Of a DNA stretch of 64,000 bases, positions 52,673-64,000 are shown one piece after another. Position 1 is the stretch's first letter. Each line of letters opens with the position of its first letter. A model generated the notes under the pieces. It did not search any database. It saw only the letters and a program-made list of their open reading frames with translations, and was not told the origin of the DNA. Source of the stretch: Streptomyces griseiscabiei (GTDB lineage Bacteria > Actinomycetota > Actinomycetes > Streptomycetales > Streptomycetaceae); NCBI RefSeq assembly GCF_020010925.1, contig NZ_JAGJBZ010000003.1, positions 248,001 to 312,000 on the forward strand, written 5' to 3'. The position numbers and the translations under genes were made by a program.

Positions 52673-53851
52673 ATGAGTACCAAGGACTTCATCGAGAAGG
52701 ACTACTACAAGGTCCTCGGCGTCCCCAAGGACGCCACCGAGGCCGAGATCAAGAAGGCGTACCGCAAGCTCGCCCGCGAGTTCCACCCGGACGCCAACAA
52801 GGGGAACACCAAGGCCGAGGAGCGCTTCAAGGAGATCTCCGAGGCCAACGACATCCTCGGTGACCCCAAGAAGCGCAAGGAGTACGACGAGGCCCGCGCC
52901 CTCTTCGGCAACGGCGGCTTCCGCCCCGGACCCGGCGCCGGCGGCGGCTCGTTCAACTTCGACCTGGGCGACCTCTTCGGCGGCGGCGCCCAGGGCCAGC
53001 AGGGCGCGGGCGGCTTCGGCGGGGGCATCGGCGATGTCTTCGGCGGCCTGTTCAACCGGGGCAGCTCCGGCACCACCCGGGTGCAGCCCCGGCGCGGCCA
53101 GGACATCGAGTCCGAGGTCACGCTGAGCTTCACCGAGGCCATCGAGGGCGCCACCGTGCCCCTGCGGATGTCCTCGCAGTCGCCCTGCAAGGCCTGTTCG
53201 GGCACCGGCGACGCCAACGGCACCCCCCGGGTGTGCCCGACGTGCGTCGGCACCGGGCAGGTCGCGCGGGGCTCCGGCGGCGGTTTCTCCCTGACCGACC
53301 CCTGCCCGGACTGCAAGGGCCGCGGACTGATCGCCGAGCACGCCTGCGACATCTGCAAGGGCTCGGGCCGCGCCAAGTCCTCCCGCACCATGCAGGTCAG
53401 GATCCCGGCGGGCGTCTCCGACGGCCAGCGGATCCGGCTGCGCGGCAAGGGCGCCCCCGGTGAACGGGGCGGCCCGGCGGGCGACCTGTACGTCGTCGTC
53501 CATGTCGACCCGCACCCGGTGTTCGGCCGCAAGGACGACAACCTCACGGTGACCGTCCCGGTGACCTATCCCGAGGCGGCCCTCGGCGGAGAGGTCCGGG
53601 TCCCGACCCTGGGCGGACCGCCGGTCACCCTGAAACTGCCTCCGGGCACCCCCAACGGCCGTACGATGCGGGCCCGGGGCAAGGGCGCCTTCCGCAAGGA
53701 CGGCACCCGCGGGGACCTGCTGATCACGGTCGAGGTGAGTGTCCCGCAGGACCTGTCGGGGAAGGCTCGTGACGCGCTGGAGGCGTATCGCGAGGCGACC
53801 GCGGGCGAGGACCCGCGAGCGGAGCTGTTCCAGGCCGCGAAGGGAGCATGA
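52673..53851 (+). CDS. dnaJ: DnaJ (class I, zinc-binding)
   Basis: A 392-aa class I Hsp40. The J domain carries the HPD motif (REFHPDANKGNTKAEERFKE), followed by a Gly/Phe-rich region. Four zinc motifs follow: CKACSGTG, CPTCVGTG, CPDCKGRG and CDICKGSG. The C-terminal substrate domain includes GKGAPGERGGPAGDLYVVVH. The ATG at 52673 is preceded by AAGGAGG. It contrasts with the zinc-less J-protein of the accessory operon. Confidence 0.97.
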   Translation: MSTKDFIEKDYYKVLGVPKDATEAEIKKAYRKLAREFHPDANKGNTKAEERFKEISEANDILGDPKKRKEYDEARALFGNGGFRPGPGAGGGSFNFDLGDLFGGGAQGQQGAGGFGGGIGDVFGGLFNRGSSGTTRVQPRRGQDIESEVTLSFTEAIEGATVPLRMSSQSPCKACSGTGDANGTPRVCPTCVGTGQVARGSGGGFSLTDPCPDCKGRGLIAEHACDICKGSGRAKSSRTMQVRIPAGVSDGQRIRLRGKGAPGERGGPAGDLYVVVHVDPHPVFGRKDDNLTVTVPVTYPEAALGGEVRVPTLGGPPVTLKLPPGTPNGRTMRARGKGAFRKDGTRGDLLITVEVSVPQDLSGKARDALEAYREATAGEDPRAELFQAAKGA

Positions 53852-54327
53852 ATGTGATGGACGGCCGCCGTAGACAGAATCCACTGGGTCGGGCGTACGA
53901 GCTGACGGAAGAGACACCGGTGTACGTCATCTCGGTGGCCGCCCAGCTCTCCGGTCTGCACCCGCAGACCCTGCGCCAGTACGACCGTCTCGGCCTGGTC
54001 TCCCCGGACCGCACCGCCGGGCGCGGCCGTCGCTACTCGGCCCGTGACATCGAACTGCTGCGCACCGTCCAGCAGTTGTCGCAGGACGAGGGCATCAACC
54101 TGGCCGGCATCAAGCGCATCATCGAGCTGGAGAACCAGGTCGCCGCGCTCCAGTCCCGGGTCGCCGAGATGGAGGCCGCCCTCGACGGCGCCGCCGCGGC
54201 CATGCGCCAGCGCGAGGCCGCGGTCCACGCCTCCTACCGGCGTGACCTGGTGCCGTATCAGGAAGTGCAGCAGAGCAGCGCGTTGGTGGTGTGGCGGCCG
54301 AAGGGGCGGCAGCCAACCGCGGACTGA
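53848..54327 (+). CDS. hspR: HspR, MerR-family heat-shock repressor
   Basis: A 159-aa autoregulator binding HAIR elements. The MerR-type HTH is TPVYVISVAAQLSGLHPQTL with RQYDRLGLVSPDRTAGRGRR, followed by YSARDIELLRTVQQLSQDEG and the coiled coil NQVAALQSRVAEMEAALDGA. DnaK acts as its co-repressor in Streptomyces. The start overlaps dnaJ (ATGA at 53848); an in-frame ATG at 53857 is the alternative. Confidence 0.96.
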   Translation: MNVMDGRRRQNPLGRAYELTEETPVYVISVAAQLSGLHPQTLRQYDRLGLVSPDRTAGRGRRYSARDIELLRTVQQLSQDEGINLAGIKRIIELENQVAALQSRVAEMEAALDGAAAAMRQREAAVHASYRRDLVPYQEVQQSSALVVWRPKGRQPTAD

Positions 54328-54345
54328 CCGCCCGAACGTCCGAAG

Positions 54346-54393
54346 TACGCGCGGGGCCCGGAGGTTCACCTGAACCTCCGGGCCCCGCGCGTA
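54346..54393. terminator. Bidirectional terminator, 23-bp perfect stem
   Basis: A complete palindrome with a 2-nt centre, with arms beginning TACGCGCGGGGCCCGGAGG. It lies between hspR (plus) and the membrane protein gene (minus) and closes both transcripts. Confidence 0.9.
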
Positions 54394-54442
54394 GCTGAAA
54401 CGACCAGCCCTCCTGATCCGATTCAGCGTTCCTCGCGGTCCG

Positions 54443-56539
54443 TCACCGAAAGCCGCCGCCCTGGTGTCCGGGCTGGTTCGGCGGAGTGACCGGGGTCCGG
54501 CCGGCCGGAGGCTGCGACTGAGGTGGCGGGGACGGCCACGCGGGCTGGTGAGGCGTGGGCGGGTACGGCTGCTGGGGTGTCACCGGGGGCTGGATGGACG
54601 TGTGCGGCTGATGCTGCGGTACGGACGCTCGCTCGGCGGGGGCGGGGCTGTGCTGCTGCGGGGGTGTGTCGACTTGGGGAAACGGCTGGGTACTGACCCG
54701 GTCGAGCAGGACGATGTTCGGGTTGCAGTCCCCGGCGTGCACCTGCACGGCCCCGCCCGCCTGTCGCTCCACCACCAGCAGGCTGAACTCGGCGAGAGCC
54801 TGGAGCTGTGTGGGTTCGAGGGCGTACTCGTAGACGCGCTGCCGCCCGGTGGCCAGGCTGGTGCTGTCGCTCTCACCCGTTGTGCGGGTCGTGGACTCGT
54901 TCGTGCCGTGCGTGACGGTGGTGGAGACGCCGGACGTCGTGCTGTGACTGCGGCCGGAGTTGGTGGAACTCGCCACCGAGAGCGGGTTGAAGGCGCCCTG
55001 ATAGGTGGAGGAGCTGTTCCGGCCCCGGGTGACGGAACTGCTCTGGGTCGTGCCCCTGCTCGTGGACGAGCCGAGCGTGCTGGCGATGGACGTGTTGACG
55101 GTCCGCCCTTCCGTGTCCGTCAGGGTGTGCAGGACGAAGGAGTGGTGACGGCCCATGAAGTCGGCGGCGATCATGGCCTCCTGATGGTTTCCGAGCCGCA
55201 TGAAGCCGACTGTGCCACCGCCGATCAGCTGCTCTCCCGCGTCCCTCAAGTGTGCGTGCACAAAGGTGAGTTGAGCGCCGTGCCGCTCGCAGACCTGAGC
55301 CAGCTGTTCGAGATGGCGCCGCTGCAGACCCTGCTCACCGAGAGCCACGATCACGGACGGGGCGGCCTCCTCGAAGGAGGACAGCCTCCGCATCACGCTC
55401 TGCACGGCCAGGTCGGCCAGCAGCTCCGTGCTCGCCGAGCCGGCCCCGGGGTCGAGAGCGACACAGGTGAGATATCCCGGACCGCGCCCCCCGCGCGCCG
55501 TGCCCAGTTCCACCAGTGGATCCACGAAGGACACCAGCCGGAACAGGCTGTCCCGTATCTGGTCCTTGTTCTTGTCGCTGAACAGGTCGTCCGCGATGAT
55601 GTTGCGCTCGTCCCTGCTCAGCACCTTGGTGTCGTCGTCCTCACCGATCAGCACACGCAGCCCGGCGCCCAGCCGGGCCAGGGAGACGTCGGCGCCCAGC
55701 ACGCCGCACACCTGCGTGAGAACCCGGGCGTAGACGGCCCGCTCGGCCCGGCCGGACTCGGCGTTGTCACCGTTCATGGCCTCGACCAGGGCCTGCACCA
55801 GCTCGTGCGGTGCGAGGGCGCTGACGATGCCGCTTTCCGCCATCCGGCTGGGCAGCAACTGCACATCCACGGGCAGACCGCAGACTTCGGCGAGCACGGA
55901 CAGCTCGCGGCAGATCAGGGCCTGTGTCAGGTCCAGCACGATCAACGGCCGGTGGCGCAGAGTCGAGGTGCCGAAGACCGAGAGGAAGCCCTCGCGGCCG
56001 CGCTGGCTGCCCCCGAAGATGTCCAGCCGCCGGGTGTCCGGGTCGTAGGGGAGTGTGCCCCAGGCGTCCATGCCGCCGATCCACTGCTGCTGATGGCTCT
56101 CGTGGAACTGCCGACGCTGGTGCCAGGACTGCCACGCGTGCTGGAAACGCTGTTCCTGTGTGGTCTTCTGCGCCGCGCGGGCGCGGGTGGCGGAGCGCAA
56201 CTGCCATGAGGCGTAGGCCAGGTGAGCGGCCCCGAAGGCGATCACGGCCGCACTGATCGCGTTCACGGCGGGGCCGACAAGGAGGCTCAGCAGATAGCAC
56301 ACCACCGCGGCACTGACACCGAAGGCGAGCGCGGACCGCAGGCGGGCCTTGCGGCTGAGCCGGGCGGCCTCCACGCGGGTGTCGTACTCGGCAGGCAACT
56401 CCTCACGCTCGGGCTCGGGCTCGACGAAGGGCTGACGCAACGACTCGGGGTCGCGGTGGATCCAGCCGAGGCGCTGGCCGGGGTCGAAGAGGCGCTGATA
56501 ACGGCCGAGAGGTCCCGACTCGGTGCTTACGACGGTCAT
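54443..56539 (-). CDS. Membrane-anchored, degenerate HerA/TraG-like protein
   Basis: A 698-aa protein. Two adjacent membrane helices lie at about residues 70-112 (LAFGVSAAVVCYLLSLLVGP; VNAISAAVIAFGAAHLAYAS). A cytoplasmic domain with an ATPase-like plan follows, in which the P-loop is replaced by GGSQRGREG (176-184), without lysine. Downstream are a Ser/Thr-rich segment (about residues 500-570) and a terminal region resembling TraG-type C-termini (AVQVHAGDCNPNIVLLDRVS). The tail is Pro/Gln-rich. It diverges from the HerA-calpain operon and probably works with it. The start at 56539 has GGGAG upstream. Confidence 0.7.
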   Translation of the reverse strand: MTVVSTESGPLGRYQRLFDPGQRLGWIHRDPESLRQPFVEPEPEREELPAEYDTRVEAARLSRKARLRSALAFGVSAAVVCYLLSLLVGPAVNAISAAVIAFGAAHLAYASWQLRSATRARAAQKTTQEQRFQHAWQSWHQRRQFHESHQQQWIGGMDAWGTLPYDPDTRRLDIFGGSQRGREGFLSVFGTSTLRHRPLIVLDLTQALICRELSVLAEVCGLPVDVQLLPSRMAESGIVSALAPHELVQALVEAMNGDNAESGRAERAVYARVLTQVCGVLGADVSLARLGAGLRVLIGEDDDTKVLSRDERNIIADDLFSDKNKDQIRDSLFRLVSFVDPLVELGTARGGRGPGYLTCVALDPGAGSASTELLADLAVQSVMRRLSSFEEAAPSVIVALGEQGLQRRHLEQLAQVCERHGAQLTFVHAHLRDAGEQLIGGGTVGFMRLGNHQEAMIAADFMGRHHSFVLHTLTDTEGRTVNTSIASTLGSSTSRGTTQSSSVTRGRNSSSTYQGAFNPLSVASSTNSGRSHSTTSGVSTTVTHGTNESTTRTTGESDSTSLATGRQRVYEYALEPTQLQALAEFSLLVVERQAGGAVQVHAGDCNPNIVLLDRVSTQPFPQVDTPPQQHSPAPAERASVPQHQPHTSIQPPVTPQQPYPPTPHQPAWPSPPPQSQPPAGRTPVTPPNQPGHQGGGFR

Positions 56540-56797
56540 GAGTGGGGCTCCCGGCCGGTCAGGCGACAGAGGTCTCGGGCGCGCAGGCGCCAATGGAACA
56601 GTGGATGCGTGGACATGAGCCCGGCCGGGACACCCTCATCGGGCGAGGGCGGCAGAAGATACGCCTGTGTTGATTGAACTCGCCTCCATGCCCGCCGAAG
56701 CGGAGAGCCAGCTGATGATCCACAGCCGGGACATGCTGCACGAAAGCACGTTCCCAGTCCAGCGATGGTGCCCGGAGCGACGTCACAGTTGCAAGGC
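56540..56797. other. Divergent intergenic region of the HerA-calpain locus
   Basis: About 260 bp lie between the two divergent transcripts. No gene with convincing codon usage is seen. Promoters for both directions must lie here. Confidence 0.35.
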
Positions 56798-56826
56798 TTG
56801 GCCCTCGGCGCGCGCGACTCTAAGGT
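56798..56826 (+). promoter_or_regulatory. Candidate promoter of the small ORF-HerA-calpain operon
   Basis: TTGGCC (56798-56803), a 17-bp spacer and TAAGGT (56821-56826) lie about 30 bp upstream of the first gene. The spacing is ideal and both boxes are near consensus. Confidence 0.45.
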
Positions 56827-56857
56827 GTAGGCGCAAGATCGACAACAGGGGGGGAAG

Positions 56858-57043
56858 TTGCCAACAAAGCCGCTCGTGCACGAGCCTGCCCAACTGAAGG
56901 ATCCCGCCCTTTCTTTCGCGCTGCCGGACATCTCCGGCAGCGACTTCAAGCCGTACGGAAGCGGGCCCGCGTATGCGCGTCCCGTACGCCCGACCCGTTA
57001 CTGCTGCTACGCGATCCGCGGGCAGCGGGCGGGAGGGGTCTGA
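56858..57043 (+). CDS. Small 61-aa protein, first gene of the HerA operon
   Basis: A 61-aa reading frame with a TTG start at 56858, preceded by the strong site AGGGGGGGAAG. It has strongly G/C-biased third positions, like its neighbours, and ends 4 bp before the HerA ATG. The sequence PTKPLVHEPAQLKDPALSFA, then SGSDFKPYGSGPAYARPVRP has a Cys-Cys pair near the end (RYCCYAIRGQ). There is no signal peptide or membrane segment. I do not recognise a family. Close coupling suggests a regulatory or structural subunit. Confidence 0.6.
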   Translation: MPTKPLVHEPAQLKDPALSFALPDISGSDFKPYGSGPAYARPVRPTRYCCYAIRGQRAGGV

Positions 57044-57047
57044 TCCC

Positions 57048-59885
57048 ATGGACCACACGGCTTCCGGCGGCACGTGGCAGCGTTTCGCCGGCATGGAGAC
57101 CTGTCTGCTGCGCGAGGTCCCTCGCGGGCGGCCTGCCGAGGACCGGGCCCCCGGGTCCGGCGACGACCTGCACGCGCAGCGGCTCGCCGCGCTGATCTCC
57201 GCCCATCACACACGGCGGTTCCATGACCCGGCAGGCGGCGCGGTGTTCGTCGGGTGGGCACGCCGGGCGGTGGACCGGCCGATCGACGTCCTGATCGGGG
57301 GGAGCGCGCTGCTCGGCGGCCGGGCGGACGCGGACGGCGGCGATACGGCTCTCCTGCGGCTCCCCGCCGGAGCGCGCGGACTCGTCGTGCCGACGGGGGC
57401 GGCGGCCTCCCTGCTCGCGGAGTTCCCCCACTGGAGCGTCGTCGAGGGCGTGACCGACGGGCTTCTCGTGGACGACGCGGTCAATGCCACGGGAGCGGCC
57501 AACGCCACGGGGCCGGGTGCCGCCCGCCTGCGGCCCACCCTGGAGGACTGTCTCCTCGGGGTATGGCAGGAACCCTTCGCCTGGCTGGTGTTCGCCGAGC
57601 CGGTGGCCGACGCCGATCTCCATGAACTCACCGGTGATGTCGCCGACGAGCAGCGCAGGGCCCAGTCCAAGGCGGACGGTTCGCCCGAGTACGCCATCGC
57701 GGCGGCCCGGTTGGAACGCCGGCACAAGGAACTCGCCAAGGCGTCGGCCACCGGACTGTGGAGCATCCGGCTGCTGGCGGGAGGACGTACGGCGGAGGAG
57801 GCGACCCGGGTGGCCGCGCTGGTCTGCGCATCGGCGGACCTGGAGGGCCTGCCGTACGCGCTCCGCCCGACCGGACGGGTCGCGGACCTGGCCTCGGCGC
57901 TCGGCGGAGTCCTCCCCGCTCCCGAGCAGTACCCCTTCCACGCCGGTTCCGACCTGCTCGCGACACTGGCCCGGCCGCCCGCCCAGGAGATACCCGGCGT
58001 ACGGTTCGCCCTGCGGCCGGAGTTCGACGTCACTCCGGAGACCACCGGGCGACCCGCTGCCCCCGACGCTCCGGCGCCGGTCAGCCTCGGCTCGGTGCTC
58101 GACCGCAACCGCAGGCCCGTGGGCGACCTGGAGCTGACCCGTTCCACCCTCAACCGGCACACCTTCGTGTGCGGGGCGACCGGCGGCGGCAAGTCCCAGA
58201 CCGTGCGGGGTCTGTTGGAGGCGGCCACTCAGGTGGGCATCCCCTGGCTGGTGGTGGAGCCGGCCAAGGCCGAGTACCGGTTCATGTCGGCCCGGCTCGG
58301 CGACACGAGCGAGGTCGTCGTCATCAAACCCGGCGACCCCGACGCGCTACCGGCCGGCCTGAACCCCCTGGAGCCCTCGGCGTACGCGAACGGCGAGCGC
58401 TTCCCCCTCCAGACGCATCTCGACATGGTGCGCGCGCTGTTCCTGGCCTCCTTCGACCCGCAGGAGCCGTTCCCGCAGGTCCTCAGTGCCGCACTGACCC
58501 GCTGCTACGAGGACCTGGGCTGGGACCTCACCCTCGGCGAACCGCTCGTCCCCGGCACCGAACCGCGCTATCCCACGTTGGAGGACCTGGAGCACATGGC
58601 CCTGCGCGTCGTGACGGACATCGGCTACGGCAAGGAGGTCGCCGACAACGTCCAGGGCTTCATCAAGATCCGCCTCGCCAGCCTGCGGCTCGGCACGACG
58701 GGGCGCTTCCTGGAGGGAGGCCGTCCGCTCGACTTCGGTGAACTGCTGCGCCGCAACGTCGTCTTCGAGATCGAGGACGTCGGTGACGACAAGGACAAGG
58801 CGTTCCTGATGGGCACGATCCTCATCCGCCTCGTCGAGTACCTGCGCATGGAACAGCGCGTCACGCGCCGACTCTCCTTTCCCCTGCGCCACTTGAGCGT
58901 CTTCGAGGAGGCGCACCGGCTGCTCCGCCGCGTGGAGGAGGGCGGCGCGGGTGCGCACGCCGTGGAGATGTTCGCGGGTCTGCTGGCCGAGATCCGGGCA
59001 TACGGCGAAGGGTTGATCATCGCCGACCAGATCCCCTCCAAGCTCCTTCCCGACGTCATCAAGAACACCGCGGCCAAGGTCGTCCACCGCCTCCCCGCCC
59101 AGGACGACCGCGAGGCGGTCGGCGCGACCATGAACATCACGCCGGCCCAGTCCGAGTACCTGGTCACCCTTCGGCCGGGCGAGGCGGCGGTCTTCACGGA
59201 CGGCATGGACTACCCGCTGCTGGTGCGTATGCGGGACGGGACGGCCCGCGAGGACGCGGGCGCGATCCGCCCGGCGTCGGCGGCCACACTGACGGGCGAT
59301 CGCAGCCGCACGTGCGGCCCCTGCTGCACACCGGATCCGTGCACCCTGCGTGATCTGCGCAGGGCCCAGCGGCTGATGGACCAGCCCGAACTCCGGATCG
59401 CGTTGTGGGCGGAGATGGCGGTCGCGGCGCATCTGCTCGGGTGGACCACGCCACTGCCGGGCGAGGTTGTGCGGCGGGCCCTGGAGCCGCACCGGGGCCG
59501 TCTCCTGGACTGCGCGATCGGCCAGGCCGTCGACCGCGCCGTACACAGCCGAGTGGGCGCGCCCGCGGCCCCGGAGGCACTGGCCGAACACGTGGCCGCG
59601 ATGATGCGCGCCCAACTCGACGGACAGGATCCATGTCCGGTGGCGGAGCCGCGATTCAAGGCGGCGAAGGGTACGGGCACCAGGGCCTACTACCACGGAC
59701 GCCTCGCGACGCCGTCCGTGCTGGAACGGATCGTCGGGTGTGCGGATCCTTCGGAGAGGTGGTCCGAGCAGTTCTCCCGAGTCCTCACCTGCTTCGAACG
59801 GGTACCGAGGCGGACGCGGGGTGACCGGCCGGTCATGAGCAGGGGGCACGAAGTGACCGTCGACATCAAGGGGTCCGGGGCGTGA
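57048..59885 (+). CDS. HerA/VirB4-like ATPase (DUF87 type)
   Basis: A 945-aa motor ATPase. An N-terminal region of about 370 residues (which may contain a HAS-barrel-like section) precedes Walker A GATGGGKS (376-383) in FVCGATGGGKSQTVRGLLEA. Walker B LSVFEE is at 616-621, followed by the conserved AHRLLRR. A C-terminal Cys cluster C-x2-CC-x4-C (756-765) may bind metal. HerA-like proteins form hexameric DNA or polypeptide pumps. The start follows the small ORF closely, and GTGA overlap couples it to the calpain gene. Confidence 0.85.
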   Translation: MDHTASGGTWQRFAGMETCLLREVPRGRPAEDRAPGSGDDLHAQRLAALISAHHTRRFHDPAGGAVFVGWARRAVDRPIDVLIGGSALLGGRADADGGDTALLRLPAGARGLVVPTGAAASLLAEFPHWSVVEGVTDGLLVDDAVNATGAANATGPGAARLRPTLEDCLLGVWQEPFAWLVFAEPVADADLHELTGDVADEQRRAQSKADGSPEYAIAAARLERRHKELAKASATGLWSIRLLAGGRTAEEATRVAALVCASADLEGLPYALRPTGRVADLASALGGVLPAPEQYPFHAGSDLLATLARPPAQEIPGVRFALRPEFDVTPETTGRPAAPDAPAPVSLGSVLDRNRRPVGDLELTRSTLNRHTFVCGATGGGKSQTVRGLLEAATQVGIPWLVVEPAKAEYRFMSARLGDTSEVVVIKPGDPDALPAGLNPLEPSAYANGERFPLQTHLDMVRALFLASFDPQEPFPQVLSAALTRCYEDLGWDLTLGEPLVPGTEPRYPTLEDLEHMALRVVTDIGYGKEVADNVQGFIKIRLASLRLGTTGRFLEGGRPLDFGELLRRNVVFEIEDVGDDKDKAFLMGTILIRLVEYLRMEQRVTRRLSFPLRHLSVFEEAHRLLRRVEEGGAGAHAVEMFAGLLAEIRAYGEGLIIADQIPSKLLPDVIKNTAAKVVHRLPAQDDREAVGATMNITPAQSEYLVTLRPGEAAVFTDGMDYPLLVRMRDGTAREDAGAIRPASAATLTGDRSRTCGPCCTPDPCTLRDLRRAQRLMDQPELRIALWAEMAVAAHLLGWTTPLPGEVVRRALEPHRGRLLDCAIGQAVDRAVHSRVGAPAAPEALAEHVAAMMRAQLDGQDPCPVAEPRFKAAKGTGTRAYYHGRLATPSVLERIVGCADPSERWSEQFSRVLTCFERVPRRTRGDRPVMSRGHEVTVDIKGSGA

Positions 59886-61624
59886 GTGAGCTTCAAGGGG
59901 CCGACCGTTCGCCCGCGCCGGAGGCGGCCCCCCGGCCGTGGGAGTCGGCGGACACCGCCGCACCGCCGGAACCGGAGACCGCGGAGTCCTTCCCCGACTC
60001 GGGTGACGACACGCTTGGTGGCCAGCCACTGGAACCAGGCGAACCCGCTGAACCGGAGGAGCCCGCGGAGCCCTGGGAACCTGCGGAGTGGGGGCAGCCG
60101 GAGGAGTCGACGGAGTCTGCAGAGCCGTCGGAGCCCAACGGGCCTGAGGCTTCGGAGGAGCCAGAGGAGCCAGAGGAGCCAGAGGAGTCGACGCAGTCCG
60201 CAGAGCCGGCGGAGCCCAACGGGCCTGAGGCTTCTAACGATCAGAACGATCAGAACGATCAGAACGATCAGAAGGATCAGGAGGAGCCGGAGGGCCCCAA
60301 AGAGTCCGAAGACTCGGAGGATCTTGAAGAGCCGGAGGCGACGGAGGAGTTCGCAGATCCGGAGGAGCCCGCGGAACCTGAGGACCTGGCAGATCCGGAG
60401 GAGCCACAGGGCTTCGAGGAGCCGGAAGTTCCCGGGGAGTCGGAGAACACGGAGAACTCGGAGGACCCGGAGGAGTTCGCAGTCCCAGAGGAGCCTGAGG
60501 AACTGGAGGCGGAAGGCCCTTCGGAGCCGGAGCCGGAGGAACACACGGAGCATGACGCCGCTGACGGTGATGACGCCGCTGACGATGCAGACGGGCTCGC
60601 CTCAGTGGACGGAGAGCCGGAGTCGGCCGATTCCCCGGACGGTGAGCAGGGGACGGAGGACACCGAAGAGGGCGGCTCGGTGGAGCCCAGCGACTCCGGT
60701 GACACCATTCAGGAGACCGTCGATCGACCTCCCCTCGCGAACATGCGTTTCGACAAGGGCTTTGAGATCAAGGGCCTGACATATGGGGACCCGATCAACG
60801 AGAACCCCGCGGGCAAGGTGCCGCTCTTCGACGGACCGCCCACGCGGGAGCAGACCGCACAAGGCCGGTTGGGCGACTGCGGTGTCATCGCGTCGATCGG
60901 AGCCGTGGCCGGCCACAGACCCGAGGTGATCACGAACGCTGTTCAGGAAAATTCCGATGGCACCTACACGGTCTCGCTGTACGGCGCGGCTTTCGGCGCG
61001 GACGGCATCTGCCGAGCCACGGAACGACGGATCGAACTTCTCGTCAAGCCCGACCTGCCCATTGTCGAGGGCAACCCGAGCACGCCGGTCTTCGCGGCGT
61101 TGAGAGGTTCCGCGTGGGGCGCGGTACTGGAGAAGTCGATGGCCGGTGTCGACCAGACATGGGAAGACGGTCGCAGGAGCGGATGGGAGACGATCTGGCA
61201 GGCGAACCCCAAGTCCGGAGCCTCCGACGGCCCCATCCCGGCCGGCTACGAGCGGCTCAACCAGGGCCTCGACCAGTGGGGCCAGGCCGAGATACTCACT
61301 CAGCTCACGGGCAAGGACAGCGCCGTGTACCGATTCCCCCAGGGCGCGGACGCAGACACCGCGCTGGAGAGCCAGCTACGGCAGCGACTCGCGGACGGCA
61401 AGCCGATCCTGGCCGCAACGCGTCCGCTCGACACGGAGGCGGGGGAGCAGGCACTGCCGAACAATCTGGTCGCCGGGCACGTGTACGAGGTGGTCGGTGC
61501 GGAGGACGGCTTCGTGCGTCTGCGGAACCCGTGGAACATGGCTCACCCGGAGCCGGTGAAGGCCGAGGAGTTCATCGAGAGCTGCAGCTACAAAGGGTGG
61601 GGCTACTACGCCACGCTCGCGTAA
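59882..61624 (+). CDS. Calpain-family (C2) cysteine protease with acidic repeat region
   Basis: A 580-aa protein. Residues ~30-270 are a Glu/Pro/Ser/Asp-rich, highly repetitive, acidic segment including five NDQ/KDQ units. From about residue 285 a calpain-fold domain follows with catalytic Cys333 (QGRLGDCGVIASIGA), His533 (VAGHVYEVVG) and Asn549 (RLRNPWNM), the complete C2 triad in the correct order. There is no signal peptide. The start is GTG overlapping the HerA stop. It is followed 81 bp later by a small protein gene that recurs after a decayed second protease. Confidence 0.88.
   Translation: MSELQGADRSPAPEAAPRPWESADTAAPPEPETAESFPDSGDDTLGGQPLEPGEPAEPEEPAEPWEPAEWGQPEESTESAEPSEPNGPEASEEPEEPEEPEESTQSAEPAEPNGPEASNDQNDQNDQNDQKDQEEPEGPKESEDSEDLEEPEATEEFADPEEPAEPEDLADPEEPQGFEEPEVPGESENTENSEDPEEFAVPEEPEELEAEGPSEPEPEEHTEHDAADGDDAADDADGLASVDGEPESADSPDGEQGTEDTEEGGSVEPSDSGDTIQETVDRPPLANMRFDKGFEIKGLTYGDPINENPAGKVPLFDGPPTREQTAQGRLGDCGVIASIGAVAGHRPEVITNAVQENSDGTYTVSLYGAAFGADGICRATERRIELLVKPDLPIVEGNPSTPVFAALRGSAWGAVLEKSMAGVDQTWEDGRRSGWETIWQANPKSGASDGPIPAGYERLNQGLDQWGQAEILTQLTGKDSAVYRFPQGADADTALESQLRQRLADGKPILAATRPLDTEAGEQALPNNLVAGHVYEVVGAEDGFVRLRNPWNMAHPEPVKAEEFIESCSYKGWGYYATLA
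60101..60280. repeat. Coding repeats in the calpain gene
   Basis: A 53-bp direct repeat occurs at 60101-60153 and 60183-60235, with five mismatches or fewer. GAGCCA triplets lie between the copies (60156-60182). Five 9-bp AACGATCAG-type units follow at 60236-60280. These encode the acidic low-complexity stalk and show recent slippage. Confidence 0.8.
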
Positions 61625-61705
61625 CTCACCTTGGCGAACAAGGGCGTATCCGGACGTACCGGAACATGCGGAAGTATCCAGCGCACGGAGAGAGGGAAAG
61701 AAGAG

Positions 61706-61987
61706 ATGCAGGACGAGTTGGTCATTCACTCCGGACAGGTCACCACCACAGTCGGAGGTGGCCGTATCGGTGGGTTGAGCAGTGCTCCCCCCACCGGATC
61801 GGAACGGGCCGAGGCGAGGCTCGCCATCAGTGAGGTGGACGGCACGGAACGATATGAGCAGCTTCACGTGGGCGACACCTTCGAGGTGGACGGCGAGGCA
61901 TGGCGCCTCACGGACATCCGGTACTCGAGTGCCGGGCAGTGGGCGGTCGTGGCCGTACCGGCGGTTTCGGCTCTCCCCGACGCATGA
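61706..61987 (+). CDS. Small beta-rich protein A, partner of the calpain gene
   Basis: A 93-aa protein: DELVIHSGQVTTTVGGGRIG, then GDTFEVDGEAWRLTDIRYSS and GQWAVVAVPAVSAL. It is predicted beta-rich, without cysteine or signal. It is clearly homologous to the protein at 62301. It could be an inhibitor, substrate or structural partner of the protease. I recognise it only as a small Streptomyces family of unknown function. Confidence 0.75.
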   Translation: MQDELVIHSGQVTTTVGGGRIGGLSSAPPTGSERAEARLAISEVDGTERYEQLHVGDTFEVDGEAWRLTDIRYSSAGQWAVVAVPAVSALPDA

Positions 61988-62104
61988 GCCGAGGCGGTTC
62001 GACGGCGCGGGACCGGTCCGACTTCAGGTGATCTGCACACCTGTCACACATCAGCCGGACGACGGAATGCCGATCCTGGTGGGAAACCGGGAGGCGGACG
62101 CGGA

Positions 62105-62231
62105 ACTGGCGAGGTGACACTGCTCCCGCGGGGCACCGCTCCGAAGCCATCGAGAACGCCGTCCCCGCGCTGGAGGTGCACCTGCGGCGGCAGCTCGCGG
62201 ACAGCAGAACGATCTTGGCCGGTGATCGGTG
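62105..62231 (+). pseudogene. Decayed fragment of a second calpain domain
   Basis: In one frame LLPRGTAP and, after a frameshift, IENAVPALEVHLRRQLADSR, followed by TILAGDR and a stop. This aligns with FPQGADADTALESQLRQRLA, then DGKPILAATR of the intact calpain. The catalytic parts are absent. It lies between the two paralogous small genes, implying duplication of a protease-small-protein pair. Confidence 0.65.
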
Positions 62232-62300
62232 AAGGGCGGCCAGGGCATGCGGACAACCCGGAAAACACTCCCGCTCGGAGTATGTGGAGAGGAGATTCGT

Positions 62301-62564
62301 ATGACACGGGACAAGTTGGTGATCCGCTCCGGGCAGCTCACGAGGACCGAAGAGGGAAAAGTCGGAGGGGTGAGCAGCGCATCGGCCACCGAGTCGCGAC
62401 CTGCCCGCGTGAAGCTGGCGGTTGTCGACGCCGACGGCACGGAACACAAGGAGCGCCTGGGGCTGGACGACACCTTCCCCGTGGGCTCGGAGACCTGGCG
62501 CTTGATGGACGTCACGCACTTCGCCGACGGCAGGTGGGCGGCCGTGGCGGTCCCGCAGACGTAG
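62301..62564 (+). CDS. Small beta-rich protein B, paralogue of 61706
   Basis: An 87-aa protein: TRDKLVIRSGQLTRTEEGKV, then LGLDDTFPVGSETWRLMDVT and GRWAAVAVPQT. The match to the protein at 61706 covers the whole length. GAGAGGAG precedes the ATG. It survives intact although the protease fragment before it has decayed. Confidence 0.75.
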   Translation: MTRDKLVIRSGQLTRTEEGKVGGVSSASATESRPARVKLAVVDADGTEHKERLGLDDTFPVGSETWRLMDVTHFADGRWAAVAVPQT

Positions 62565-62756
62565 CCGTCTCGATCACTGTGCCCGAGGATTCCACCTCCC
62601 CGGAGACACCCGACGCATGACGTGGCCATGATCACCGGCCGGGTCGCGGGGCCGATCGGGAAGGTGCCCCGTGGTCGGCGCCGGGTCGCTGAACCAAGGG
62701 GCCGGGGACAGCGTCTCACCAGGGGAAACGCGTACATCGGTGTCGGGGAGGCGCAC

Positions 62757-63263
62757 ATGGCCATGGTCGGACTGTTCTGGATCGCCGAGGACGGCGGGGT
62801 GTACGTCGGGGCGCGGCCGGAGGGGTACGGGTACGGGGTGCGGCTGACGCGGGACTGGGTGGAGGCGCTCGGGACCGACCAGAGCGCCGTGTGGGGCTGG
62901 TCGGAGATCCGGTCGGTCGCCGTGCGGTACGTACGGATCAGGTCCGGCGCCAGGCTGCTCGCCACCACGGCCGTCGACCTCGCCCTCAACGCCGTCGCGG
63001 GGGGTGGTGACGCCGCGGCTGCGTTCGAGGTGCACCTGGAGACCGCCGACAGGACCGTCGAGCTGAACGCACAGCTGGCCGCTTCCCTCGGCGGCTACGT
63101 CCAGTCCGAGTACGACCTCTCCGTCGCCCTGCTGGAGCGCCTGGCGGCGGGTACGGCGGAGGTCGACACCCTCGCGGAGTGGGGCCGCGTCCACGCCGCC
63201 GAGGGGACCCCGCGGCGCGAGGTGCGGGAGGCCCTGCTGCGGACGTGGGCGACCGGGGACTGA
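62757..63263 (+). CDS. Hypothetical protein with N-terminal PH-like region
   Basis: A 168-aa soluble protein: AMVGLFWIAEDGGVYVGARP, EALGTDQSAVWGWSEIRSVA and AFEVHLETADRTVELNAQLA. The alternating beta strands suggest a PH-like barrel; the C-terminus is helical (LLERLAAGTAEVDTLAEWGR). GGGGAGG precedes the ATG. No family is recognised, and it may or may not belong to the calpain locus. Confidence 0.6.
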   Translation: MAMVGLFWIAEDGGVYVGARPEGYGYGVRLTRDWVEALGTDQSAVWGWSEIRSVAVRYVRIRSGARLLATTAVDLALNAVAGGGDAAAAFEVHLETADRTVELNAQLAASLGGYVQSEYDLSVALLERLAAGTAEVDTLAEWGRVHAAEGTPRREVREALLRTWATGD

Positions 63264-63617
63264 GCCGCGAGCCGGCGCGTGCCGTGCGGGGGCGGCTGGT
63301 CGAGGAGCGTGGGCGGCTGCCGCTCATCGAGGACCGGGCCCCGCATGAGGTCCGCGTTCACGTGAGGTCCGCCACCCGGCGCGTACGTCCCGTCGAGCGG
63401 TGGTGCTGACCGACACCGTGGGGACGGCGCTGATCCCGGACGCCGTCGAGCCCGGCCCTCGCCCTGGCCATGTCCGACCCGTCGGCGATCGGCCACCCCG
63501 CTGACCTGCGGCCCGCACCTCCAGGACTTCCGCCCGCACCACTACGAACCCCCTTCGTCCTCAACCCCCGCCCGTACGGCACCCCTTGATGACGCGGCGG
63601 AGTCGGCGACAGCCGCC
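63264..63617. other. Probable gene remnant without an open frame
   Basis: Plus-strand frames give LTDTVGTALIPDAVEPGPRP, MSDPSAIGHPADLRPAPPG and YEPPFVLNPRPYGTP, but with frame changes between them. It looks like the end of a lost gene; I cannot name it. Confidence 0.3.
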
Positions 63618-63658
63618 GGCCCCCGTTCCGTGAAGGCCGAGCGGCGACAGCGGGGGCC
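63618..63658 (+). terminator. Hairpin terminator
   Basis: GGCCCCCG / CGGGGGCC with a 25-nt loop is followed by CTTTGCTTT. It probably ends transcription from the calpain-side genes before the lipoprotein gene. Confidence 0.5.
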
Positions 63659-63804
63659 CTTTGCTTTACCCTCTTCACACCGAGACCACACAAGGCTGTT
63701 GTCATCTCGTTAAGTGATTAGTCCTTGACGCTGAGGTGATCACCGCGTTGGCTTTCAGCCACCTGGGTCGCAGTTGCTGCACCCACGCCCGGAAGGCCCT
63801 TGAT

Positions 63805-64000
63805 GTGAACGCCCGTACCACCCGCACCACCCCCAGCACTCGTATACGTCGTCGCACCACCGCTCTGCGCCGGACCGCCACCGCCCTCGCCGCCTCGGCC
63901 GCGGCCGTCTCCCTCGCCTCCTGCGGGGTCGTGGACGTCGGCGACAGCGCGGAGGCGAGCCCCACGAAGGGCGACGACATCACGGTGGGCGTGCTGTTCC
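63805..64000 (+). CDS. ABC-type sugar solute-binding lipoprotein (partial)
   Basis: The first 65 residues of a protein cut by the window end. A basic N-terminus, the hydrophobic ALAASAAAVSLASC stretch and lipobox SLASC (Cys40) mark a lipoprotein. DDITVGVLF is the usual first strand of xylose/ribose-type periplasmic binding proteins. The start is GTG at 63805; GGAAGG lies upstream. In other streptomycetes, as I recall, a solute-binding protein gene follows hspR, so the HerA-calpain block may be an insertion. Confidence 0.75.
   Translation, partial: MNARTTRTTPSTRIRRRTTALRRTATALAASAAAVSLASCGVVDVGDSAEASPTKGDDITVGVLF

Follow-up and report, generated by a model that had tools for sequence, protein, structure and literature searches.

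The 64,000-nucleotide stretch of Streptomyces griseiscabiei DNA analysed here, termed the window, carries what is probably a polymorphic-toxin system in which a type IV secretion-like motor pair forms the fixed part. The pair is conserved, its two members share a fold and one of them has a dead P-loop; the cargo behind it is swappable, has immunity-type neighbours and belongs to a block of sparse, island-like distribution. The exchange of toxin and immunity genes is well supported, and we infer that the toxin is exported; read from sequence, the locus looks like an undescribed route by which soil bacteria could attack neighbouring cells. Of the three options left by an earlier note, a polymorphic toxin and a secretion/assembly machine are now favoured together, and defence is less favoured.

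All ORFs that the earlier note listed in the window were found at their coordinates, and the layout of a divergent membrane-protein gene beside an operon of motor and calpain genes was borne out, with starts corrected and a second DUF6406 gene added. The minus strand encodes a membrane-anchored pseudo-ATPase of VirB4/TrwB fold, termed DEGEN (54443..56539, 698 residues), which probably starts at ATG 56539 rather than TTG 56593, since this start was chosen by the codon-usage caller and the nearest homologue has 700 residues. All other genes of the locus lie on the plus strand. The VirB4/HerA-type motor ATPase (57048..59885, 945 residues) displays an intact Walker A motif, GATGGGKSQT, and its start was placed at ATG 57048 because 15/15 aligned homologues begin there or later. 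The cargo gene (59882..61624), whose ORF shares 4 bp with that of the motor, encodes an acidic low-complexity N-terminus (~270 residues) followed by a C-terminal calpain-family cysteine protease. The small-protein gene previously described after the calpain is present, although it is one of two encoding DUF6406 proteins (61706..61987, match 5.9e-14; 62301..62564, match 1.4e-12), both candidate calpain-immunity proteins. A possible leader ORF of 61 residues with a TTG start (56858..57043) is uncertain. Its proposed membership of the operon is doubtful and it was not confirmed as a real gene, a full-length match being obtained in locus L019 only (33%, 7e-5), while in L017 and L018 just the first 19-27 codons matched (E 0.2 and 1.0). 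An Rfam scan of 53500-64000 returned nothing. The insertion site is bordered on the left by a MerR-family regulator (53857..54327), which is presumably hspR, a DnaJ label being likewise presumed, and on the right by a Peripla_BP_4 solute-binding gene (63736..64000, match 1.4e-62), of which the window holds only the start and which extends to contig position 312962.

The motor has the same fold as HerA. Its best NCBIfam match, to the DNA-translocating ATPase CedD (7.6e-14), lies well under the cut-off of that entry, and among the 7 window proteins submitted to PADLOC the motor alone was matched, to HerA entries. Motor relatives are present in many actinobacterial genera. A search of phage records was unproductive, giving two unannotated records at 27-30% identity. 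Within Streptomyces, the motor was matched in 8/101 genomes, own genome included and one match being weak (7.3e-4), while hspR is present in 101/101, own genome included; a block common to most Streptomyces was thus ruled out. The adjacency of hspR and the solute-binding gene in other streptomycetes, stated in the earlier note, was confirmed by a gap of 289-474 bp in 6 of 20 hspR neighbourhoods, against 9,408 bp in the window, the 20 being hand-picked with long contigs favoured and including genomes that carry the motor elsewhere. The restricted occurrence of the motor and the empty sites together support the proposed island-like acquisition. A copy of the locus is carried by plasmid pSCL4 of S. 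clavuligerus, the industrial clavulanate producer, where an independent annotation reads hypothetical protein, ATP-binding protein, ADP-ribosyltransferase and hypothetical protein; the first hypothetical protein is DEGEN by profile.

DEGEN comprises an N-terminal transmembrane hairpin, a degenerate P-loop (GGSQRGREG), a Ser/Thr-rich insertion and a Pro/Gln-rich tail. The absence of the P-loop lysine, already noticed in the window protein, is family-wide, the position being occupied by Trp in 27, Arg in 25 and Lys in 0 of 52 sequences. Sequence homology between DEGEN and the motor was undetectable (profile comparison probability of 0.1), their folds alone matching, and a PDB sequence search with DEGEN gave chance matches only. 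DEGEN calls were obtained at 73 of 101 non-redundant motor loci; at 66 of the 73 no more than one gene separates it from the motor, and DEGEN is oriented divergently from the motor in 39 loci and co-directionally upstream in 26. The 28 loci with no called DEGEN include two in which a six-frame search recovered it (L035 and L044), several contig ends and 14 others with >5 kb on both sides. Among 118 genomes of the class, all 10 that carry the motor (E <= 1e-40) fall among the 15 that carry DEGEN (profile E <= 1e-5; Fisher 3e-11), leaving five genomes where DEGEN has no motor match.

The gene behind the motor varies. A slot gene, on the same strand and within 200 bp after the motor, was found in 51 of the 95 loci with room and overlaps the motor stop in 25 of the 51; these loci are a non-random sample, many from a search ranked by likeness to the window (best 80 of 115 confirmed relatives). 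Genes were called with our own codon-usage script, which missed the motors of L030, L084 and L180 as well as the calpains that L018 and L023 do carry, the latter two loci being among the 44/95 counted with no slot gene. A low-complexity N-terminus is present in 23/51 slot genes against 4/181 control genes (Fisher 6e-14), with a threshold fixed after the first cargo proteins had been seen and controls drawn from the same loci at distances >3.5 kb from the motor, their lengths unmatched. An MS[ED] start was observed in 11/51 slot genes and 3/181 controls (p 4.9e-6), an excess that may be partly due to the overlap with the motor stop. Toxin-type domains identified by Pfam in the slot comprise calpain, Scabin-like ART, ADPrib_exo_Tox ART, TNT, RHS, WHH nuclease and Zeta, in addition to an RNase match below cut-off, and slot genes on plasmids encode an ART and, below cut-off, RelA_SpoT. 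Exchangeable C-terminal toxin domains are therefore found in a constant setting, as in polymorphic toxins. Such an exchange is seen between L017 and L019, whose motors are 91.4% and DEGENs 90.5% identical and whose cargo similarity is undetectable. Fourteen of the 51 slot genes belong to one Actinomadura membrane-protein cluster, presumably DUF1361-like (4 of these overlap the motor stop), and three are presumably MurT-like. Many motor loci have no visible toxin, and Pfam identified no toxin family in many of the slot genes scanned, a subset of all slot genes. Its scan of L055, L074, L093, L168, L174 and L179 found nothing; judged by eye, these would be GIY-YIG (L179), C39-like (L168), HNH-like (L074, L093) and REase-like (L055, L174). 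The cargo proteins scanned contain no WXG/LXG, PAAR or signal peptide. The N-terminus of the window cargo matches no Pfam domain, and so no recognised trafficking domain, and displays no Sec-like stretch (maximum 15-residue hydropathy of -0.7 in the first 70 residues).

In the window, the slot is occupied by a calpain (Peptidase_C2 match of 1.7e-11). The Cys-His-Asn triad reported earlier is intact and lies in the Peptidase_C2 domain, as in calpain (C2) peptidases, with C333, H533 and N549 invariant in 10 distinct aligned calpains, the window's included; a PDB sequence search with the calpain protein gave nothing. The HerA-calpain combination, put forward as a unit, does not survive, because the ATPase is mostly found apart from the protease and other loci carry different cargo: calpain occurs in 9 of 104 motor loci, which rules out a fixed pair, and each calpain in those loci stands behind a motor. 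A DUF6406 gene lies directly 3' of the calpain in 9/9 loci, but DUF6406 also turns up apart from calpain, as a weak match in L072 and as genes of two further genomes. Other immunity-type neighbours are Barstar, by an RNase-like cargo, SUKH-1, by a WHH nuclease, and an HD_4 hydrolase, and behind each of the two ADPrib_exo_Tox genes a small protein is encoded, the two small proteins being homologous (4e-12). Toxin and immunity-type genes thus stand side by side, as expected of polymorphic toxins, and DUF6406, on which a search of the open-access literature found nothing, would act as a calpain inhibitor. The family gains in this way a testable role, that of inhibitor of a bacterial calpain.

The nature of the cargo bears on whether the system could instead serve intracellular, abortive anti-phage defence, in which the HerA-like motor would sense foreign DNA or another cue and free the protease or a different effector within the infected cell, with the small proteins as antitoxins. 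Such a role is rather unlikely: the cargo includes RHS, TNT and exotoxin-type ARTs as well as a WHH nuclease beside SUKH and an RNase-like protein beside Barstar, all of classes familiar from inter-bacterial toxins, the partner is a membrane pseudo-ATPase and not SIR2 or a nuclease, and no PADLOC partner was present among the 7 window proteins. It is also unlikely that the motor pair is older and does a job of its own, in the envelope or in DNA translocation, with toxin-immunity cassettes that merely hitchhike behind it or act as addiction modules. Loci L173, L175 and L176, with MurT/GatD-like neighbours and no toxin, are consistent with such a machine, as are the slots with no called gene, the CedD match and four of the five genomes with DEGEN only (L203-L206, L202 being the fifth), where DEGEN adjoins presumably MurT/GatD-like genes and the surrounding stretch contains no motor. 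However, the overlap of slot genes with the motor stop, the low-complexity N-terminus that is rare in controls and the replacement of toxins behind near-identical motors point to a functional link between motor and cargo. That the calpain is no toxin but serves to mature or regulate the motor complex, as its overlap with the motor gene might suggest, is highly improbable, since ARTs, nucleases, RHS and others occupy the same slot and few motor loci contain a calpain.

A polymorphic-toxin system thus remains the preferred reading. In it, the VirB4/HerA-type ATPase (57048-59885) would supply the power, and DEGEN (54443-56539), with the same fold and a dead nucleotide site, would serve as the motor's membrane anchor and as receiver of the cargo. 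The long, disordered acidic cargo N-terminus, devoid of a Sec-like hydrophobic stretch, would be the part recognised and the C-terminus the swappable toxic part, in the window a calpain-type protease. Cargo would be pumped from the hypha to act on competing cells and kill rivals, while the DUF6406 proteins would shield the producing strain and its kin. More tentatively, the locus might encode a minimal, self-contained actinobacterial protein-export machine, made of a motor and an inactive membrane partner with no VirB/ESX scaffold, that injects polymorphic toxins recognised via a disordered acidic N-terminus, and would then be a new type of secretion system. A channel protein was looked for and not found, the VirB6/TrbL profile PF04610 being unmatched across the whole genome; this profile matches 3/14 control genomes, above cut-off in 1, and a diverged VirB6 could escape it.

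A search of the open-access literature found no paper on the system and one 2025 paper with a single sentence on a similar neighbourhood. In that sentence (mBio 2025, PMC12691689), a signal-peptide-free 'cluster A' alarmone synthetase of Streptomyces albireticuli co-occurs with TrwB, TrwK and TrwI; exchangeable cargo, a pseudo-ATPase and other toxin families do not appear in the part of the paper drawn on here. The two neighbourhoods, set side by side by description rather than sequence, are probably the same system, because an S. antimycoticus plasmid locus combines the motor/DEGEN pair with an HD_4 hydrolase and with cargo that resembles RelA_SpoT below the cut-off. With the HerA anti-phage systems (HerA-SIR2, HerA-DUF4297) the locus shares the motor fold, but those have a fixed nuclease or NADase, whereas here a membrane pseudo-ATPase is combined with a variable toxin and an immunity-type gene, and no fixed SIR2, nuclease or DUF4297 partner was found downstream. 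Type VII secretion couples EccC to WXG/LXG toxins, in contrast with the 7 window proteins, in which Pfam and NCBIfam identified no WXG/LXG or other ESX family. Bacterial calpains are described as C2 peptidases of rare and patchy occurrence, present in a minority of Streptomyces (Rawlings 2015, PMC4631099), a reviewer of that paper suggesting WXG-fused calpains as secreted toxins; the sections of it considered here draw no link to HerA or DUF6406. Known polymorphic toxins (2012, PMC3482391) have in common with this system a trafficking part that stays constant, C-terminal toxin domains that can be exchanged and immunity genes next to the toxin, but the trafficking routes in the portion of that work used here involve no VirB4/HerA motor with an inactive TrwB-like partner. 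Type IV secretion systems differ in their ATP-binding VirD4/TrwB coupling protein, as the TrwB-like partner described here lacks the Walker lysine in 52/52 sequences while keeping fold and membrane anchor, and in VirB6, unmatched by PF04610 in this genome. In the parts of a 2025 review consulted (PMC12857230), the evolution of Gram-positive type IV systems as dedicated effector translocators is a long-standing question with one strong case, and S. suis 89K is apparently the first such translocator (section 22). The present locus is a candidate for that question, in which a VirB4-like motor and an inactive partner resembling a coupling protein are linked to toxin/immunity cassettes.

Re-derivation of the open reading frames (ORFs) in the window returned the coordinates reported by the earlier note. 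The plus-strand VirB4/HerA-type ATPase (57048-59885; the motor), whose start was set at 57048 by homologues, matched Pfam HerA_C above and DUF87 just below the cut-off, and was assigned as HerA-like by NCBIfam (below cut-offs) and by PADLOC. The third gene (59882-61624) displays a Pfam Peptidase_C2 match (1.7e-11), and the intact Cys-His-Asn calpain triad previously ascribed to its product was borne out, with C333, H533 and N549 invariant across 10 distinct aligned calpains. Two small genes (61706-61987 and 62301-62564) matched Pfam DUF6406, while neither the minus-strand membrane pseudo-ATPase (54443-56539; the partner) nor the 61-aa ORF matched a Pfam family at its cut-off. NCBIfam NF033849, "serine-rich protein", matched the motor core (2e-7) and, within the partner, its Ser-rich part (2.5e-4), in each case far below cut-off, hinting at motor/partner fusions elsewhere.

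Motor loci were drawn from named GTDB contigs (80 of the 115 confirmed ones were returned), relatives, a genus sample and a class sample, giving 105 loci with the window included (L-numbers denote individual loci); removal of three without a motor gene >300 aa in the gene calls and of one duplicate left 101. A partner homologue was called in 73 of the 101, separated from the motor by at most one gene in 66 of these, and a six-frame search revealed two further partners (L035 and L044). The partner is divergent from the motor in 39 loci, co-directional upstream in 26 and downstream in 8. Among 118 class genomes, the motor was found in 10 (E <= 1e-40), all of which belong to the 15 with a partner (profile, E <= 1e-5). 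In four of the five partner-only genomes, those with readable stretches, the partner adjoins MurT/GatD-like genes and no motor lies in the stretch. In L173, L175, L176 and L203-L206, the pair, or a partner without motor, adjoins such genes and no toxin was seen. These neighbours, which by eye we take to be MurT/GatD-like, suggest an envelope-related setting for the pair or lone partner in some actinobacteria. No partner homologue was found in a distant motor clade (L104, L109, L178, L179), where the motor is instead preceded by a small protein that has a single hydrophobic segment. A peptidase cluster, c2, occurs in 25 loci (L017 8196-9020 and 24 others) and often adjoins the partner gene; its L019 member is a Peptidase_M48 (1e-19), and none was seen beside the partner in the window.

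That an exchangeable toxin and its immunity accompany this pair is well supported. Of the 95 loci long enough to show it, 51 have a same-strand gene <=200 bp behind the motor, in what we term the slot. In 23 of these 51 slot genes, versus 4 of 181 control genes, the product begins with a low-complexity stretch that contains few large hydrophobic residues; the remaining 28 slot genes include 14 from one Actinomadura membrane-protein cluster and three MurT-like genes. The slot product, or cargo, is a calpain in nine distinct loci, and the slot scan also revealed a Scabin-like ART (3.3e-37), ADPrib_exo_Tox (3.5e-28) and TNT (3.4e-21), the L008 and L107 entries in the ART/TNT scan being one and the same gene. 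Further matches were RHS repeats (1.2e-71), a WHH protein (5.6e-11) followed by SUKH-1, an RNase below its cut-off (5e-4) followed by Barstar (5.5e-19), and Zeta (2.8e-18), located upstream of the motor in L026. Counting the RNase, a recognised toxin-type domain lies in or near the slot in 16 of 104 non-duplicate loci; the scan covered part of the slot genes and found no toxin family in the other proteins scanned. DUF6406 directly follows the calpain in 9/9 calpain loci, from Streptomyces to Microlunatus (the window, L018, L019, L020, L022, L023, L024, L030 and L167), and L072 has a weak DUF6406 match and no calpain. DUF6406 exceeds its cut-off in 3 of 61 sampled Streptomyces genomes, S. griseiscabiei included, and one of the two remaining genomes has it next to a pentapeptide gene and a SUKH-1 gene (3.9e-11).

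Two Actinomadura gene clusters are frequent immediately upstream of the motor, c17 (7 loci), with an acidic N-terminus and conserved C-terminus, and c13 (8 loci), exonuclease-like by a weak Rv2179c-like match; these genes (L029 8903-9967, L038 9043-9996, L032 3899-4474) are perhaps another cargo type.

Exchange of cargo is seen between L017 and L019, where motors are 91.4% and partners 90.5% identical, while similarity between their cargoes, a Scabin-like ART and a calpain, respectively, is undetectable. The site is bordered by the MerR-family gene hspR (53857-54327), found in 101/101 Streptomyces, and by a solute-binding gene (Peripla_BP_4, from 63736), 9,408 bp apart in the window. Among 20 hspR neighbourhoods, the solute-binding gene lies 289-474 bp downstream in six, follows one to five other genes in six and is absent from the stretch in eight. 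The block is also near hspR in L017-L020 and L167, and the interval resembles a variable insertion site. In L134, L138, L139, L141, L147 and L150, hspR and the solute-binding gene are separated by one to five other genes; the interval is possibly an insertion hotspot in other Streptomyces.

Plasmid records with a motor match numbered 44, of which two were opened. S. clavuligerus pSCL4 carries, in order, partner, motor, an "ADP-ribosyltransferase" (PF03496, 2.1e-24; 4-bp overlap) and a small protein homologous to that behind the ART of L025 (4e-12). On the S. antimycoticus plasmid, partner and motor are accompanied by a cargo whose RelA_SpoT match (4.4e-4) falls short of the cut-off, by a 94-aa protein and by an HD_4 gene (2.2e-21).

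The gene overlap, the co-inheritance and the type IV secretion-like folds would be explained most economically by export of the toxin by the motor. What weakens this proposal most is that a visible toxin is missing from many motor loci and that no channel component was found. The accessible part of the literature yielded no description of a motor/partner/toxin system. In PMC12691689, one sentence mentions a Streptomyces alarmone synthetase adjoining TrwB, TrwK and TrwI, a neighbourhood that probably represents the same system.
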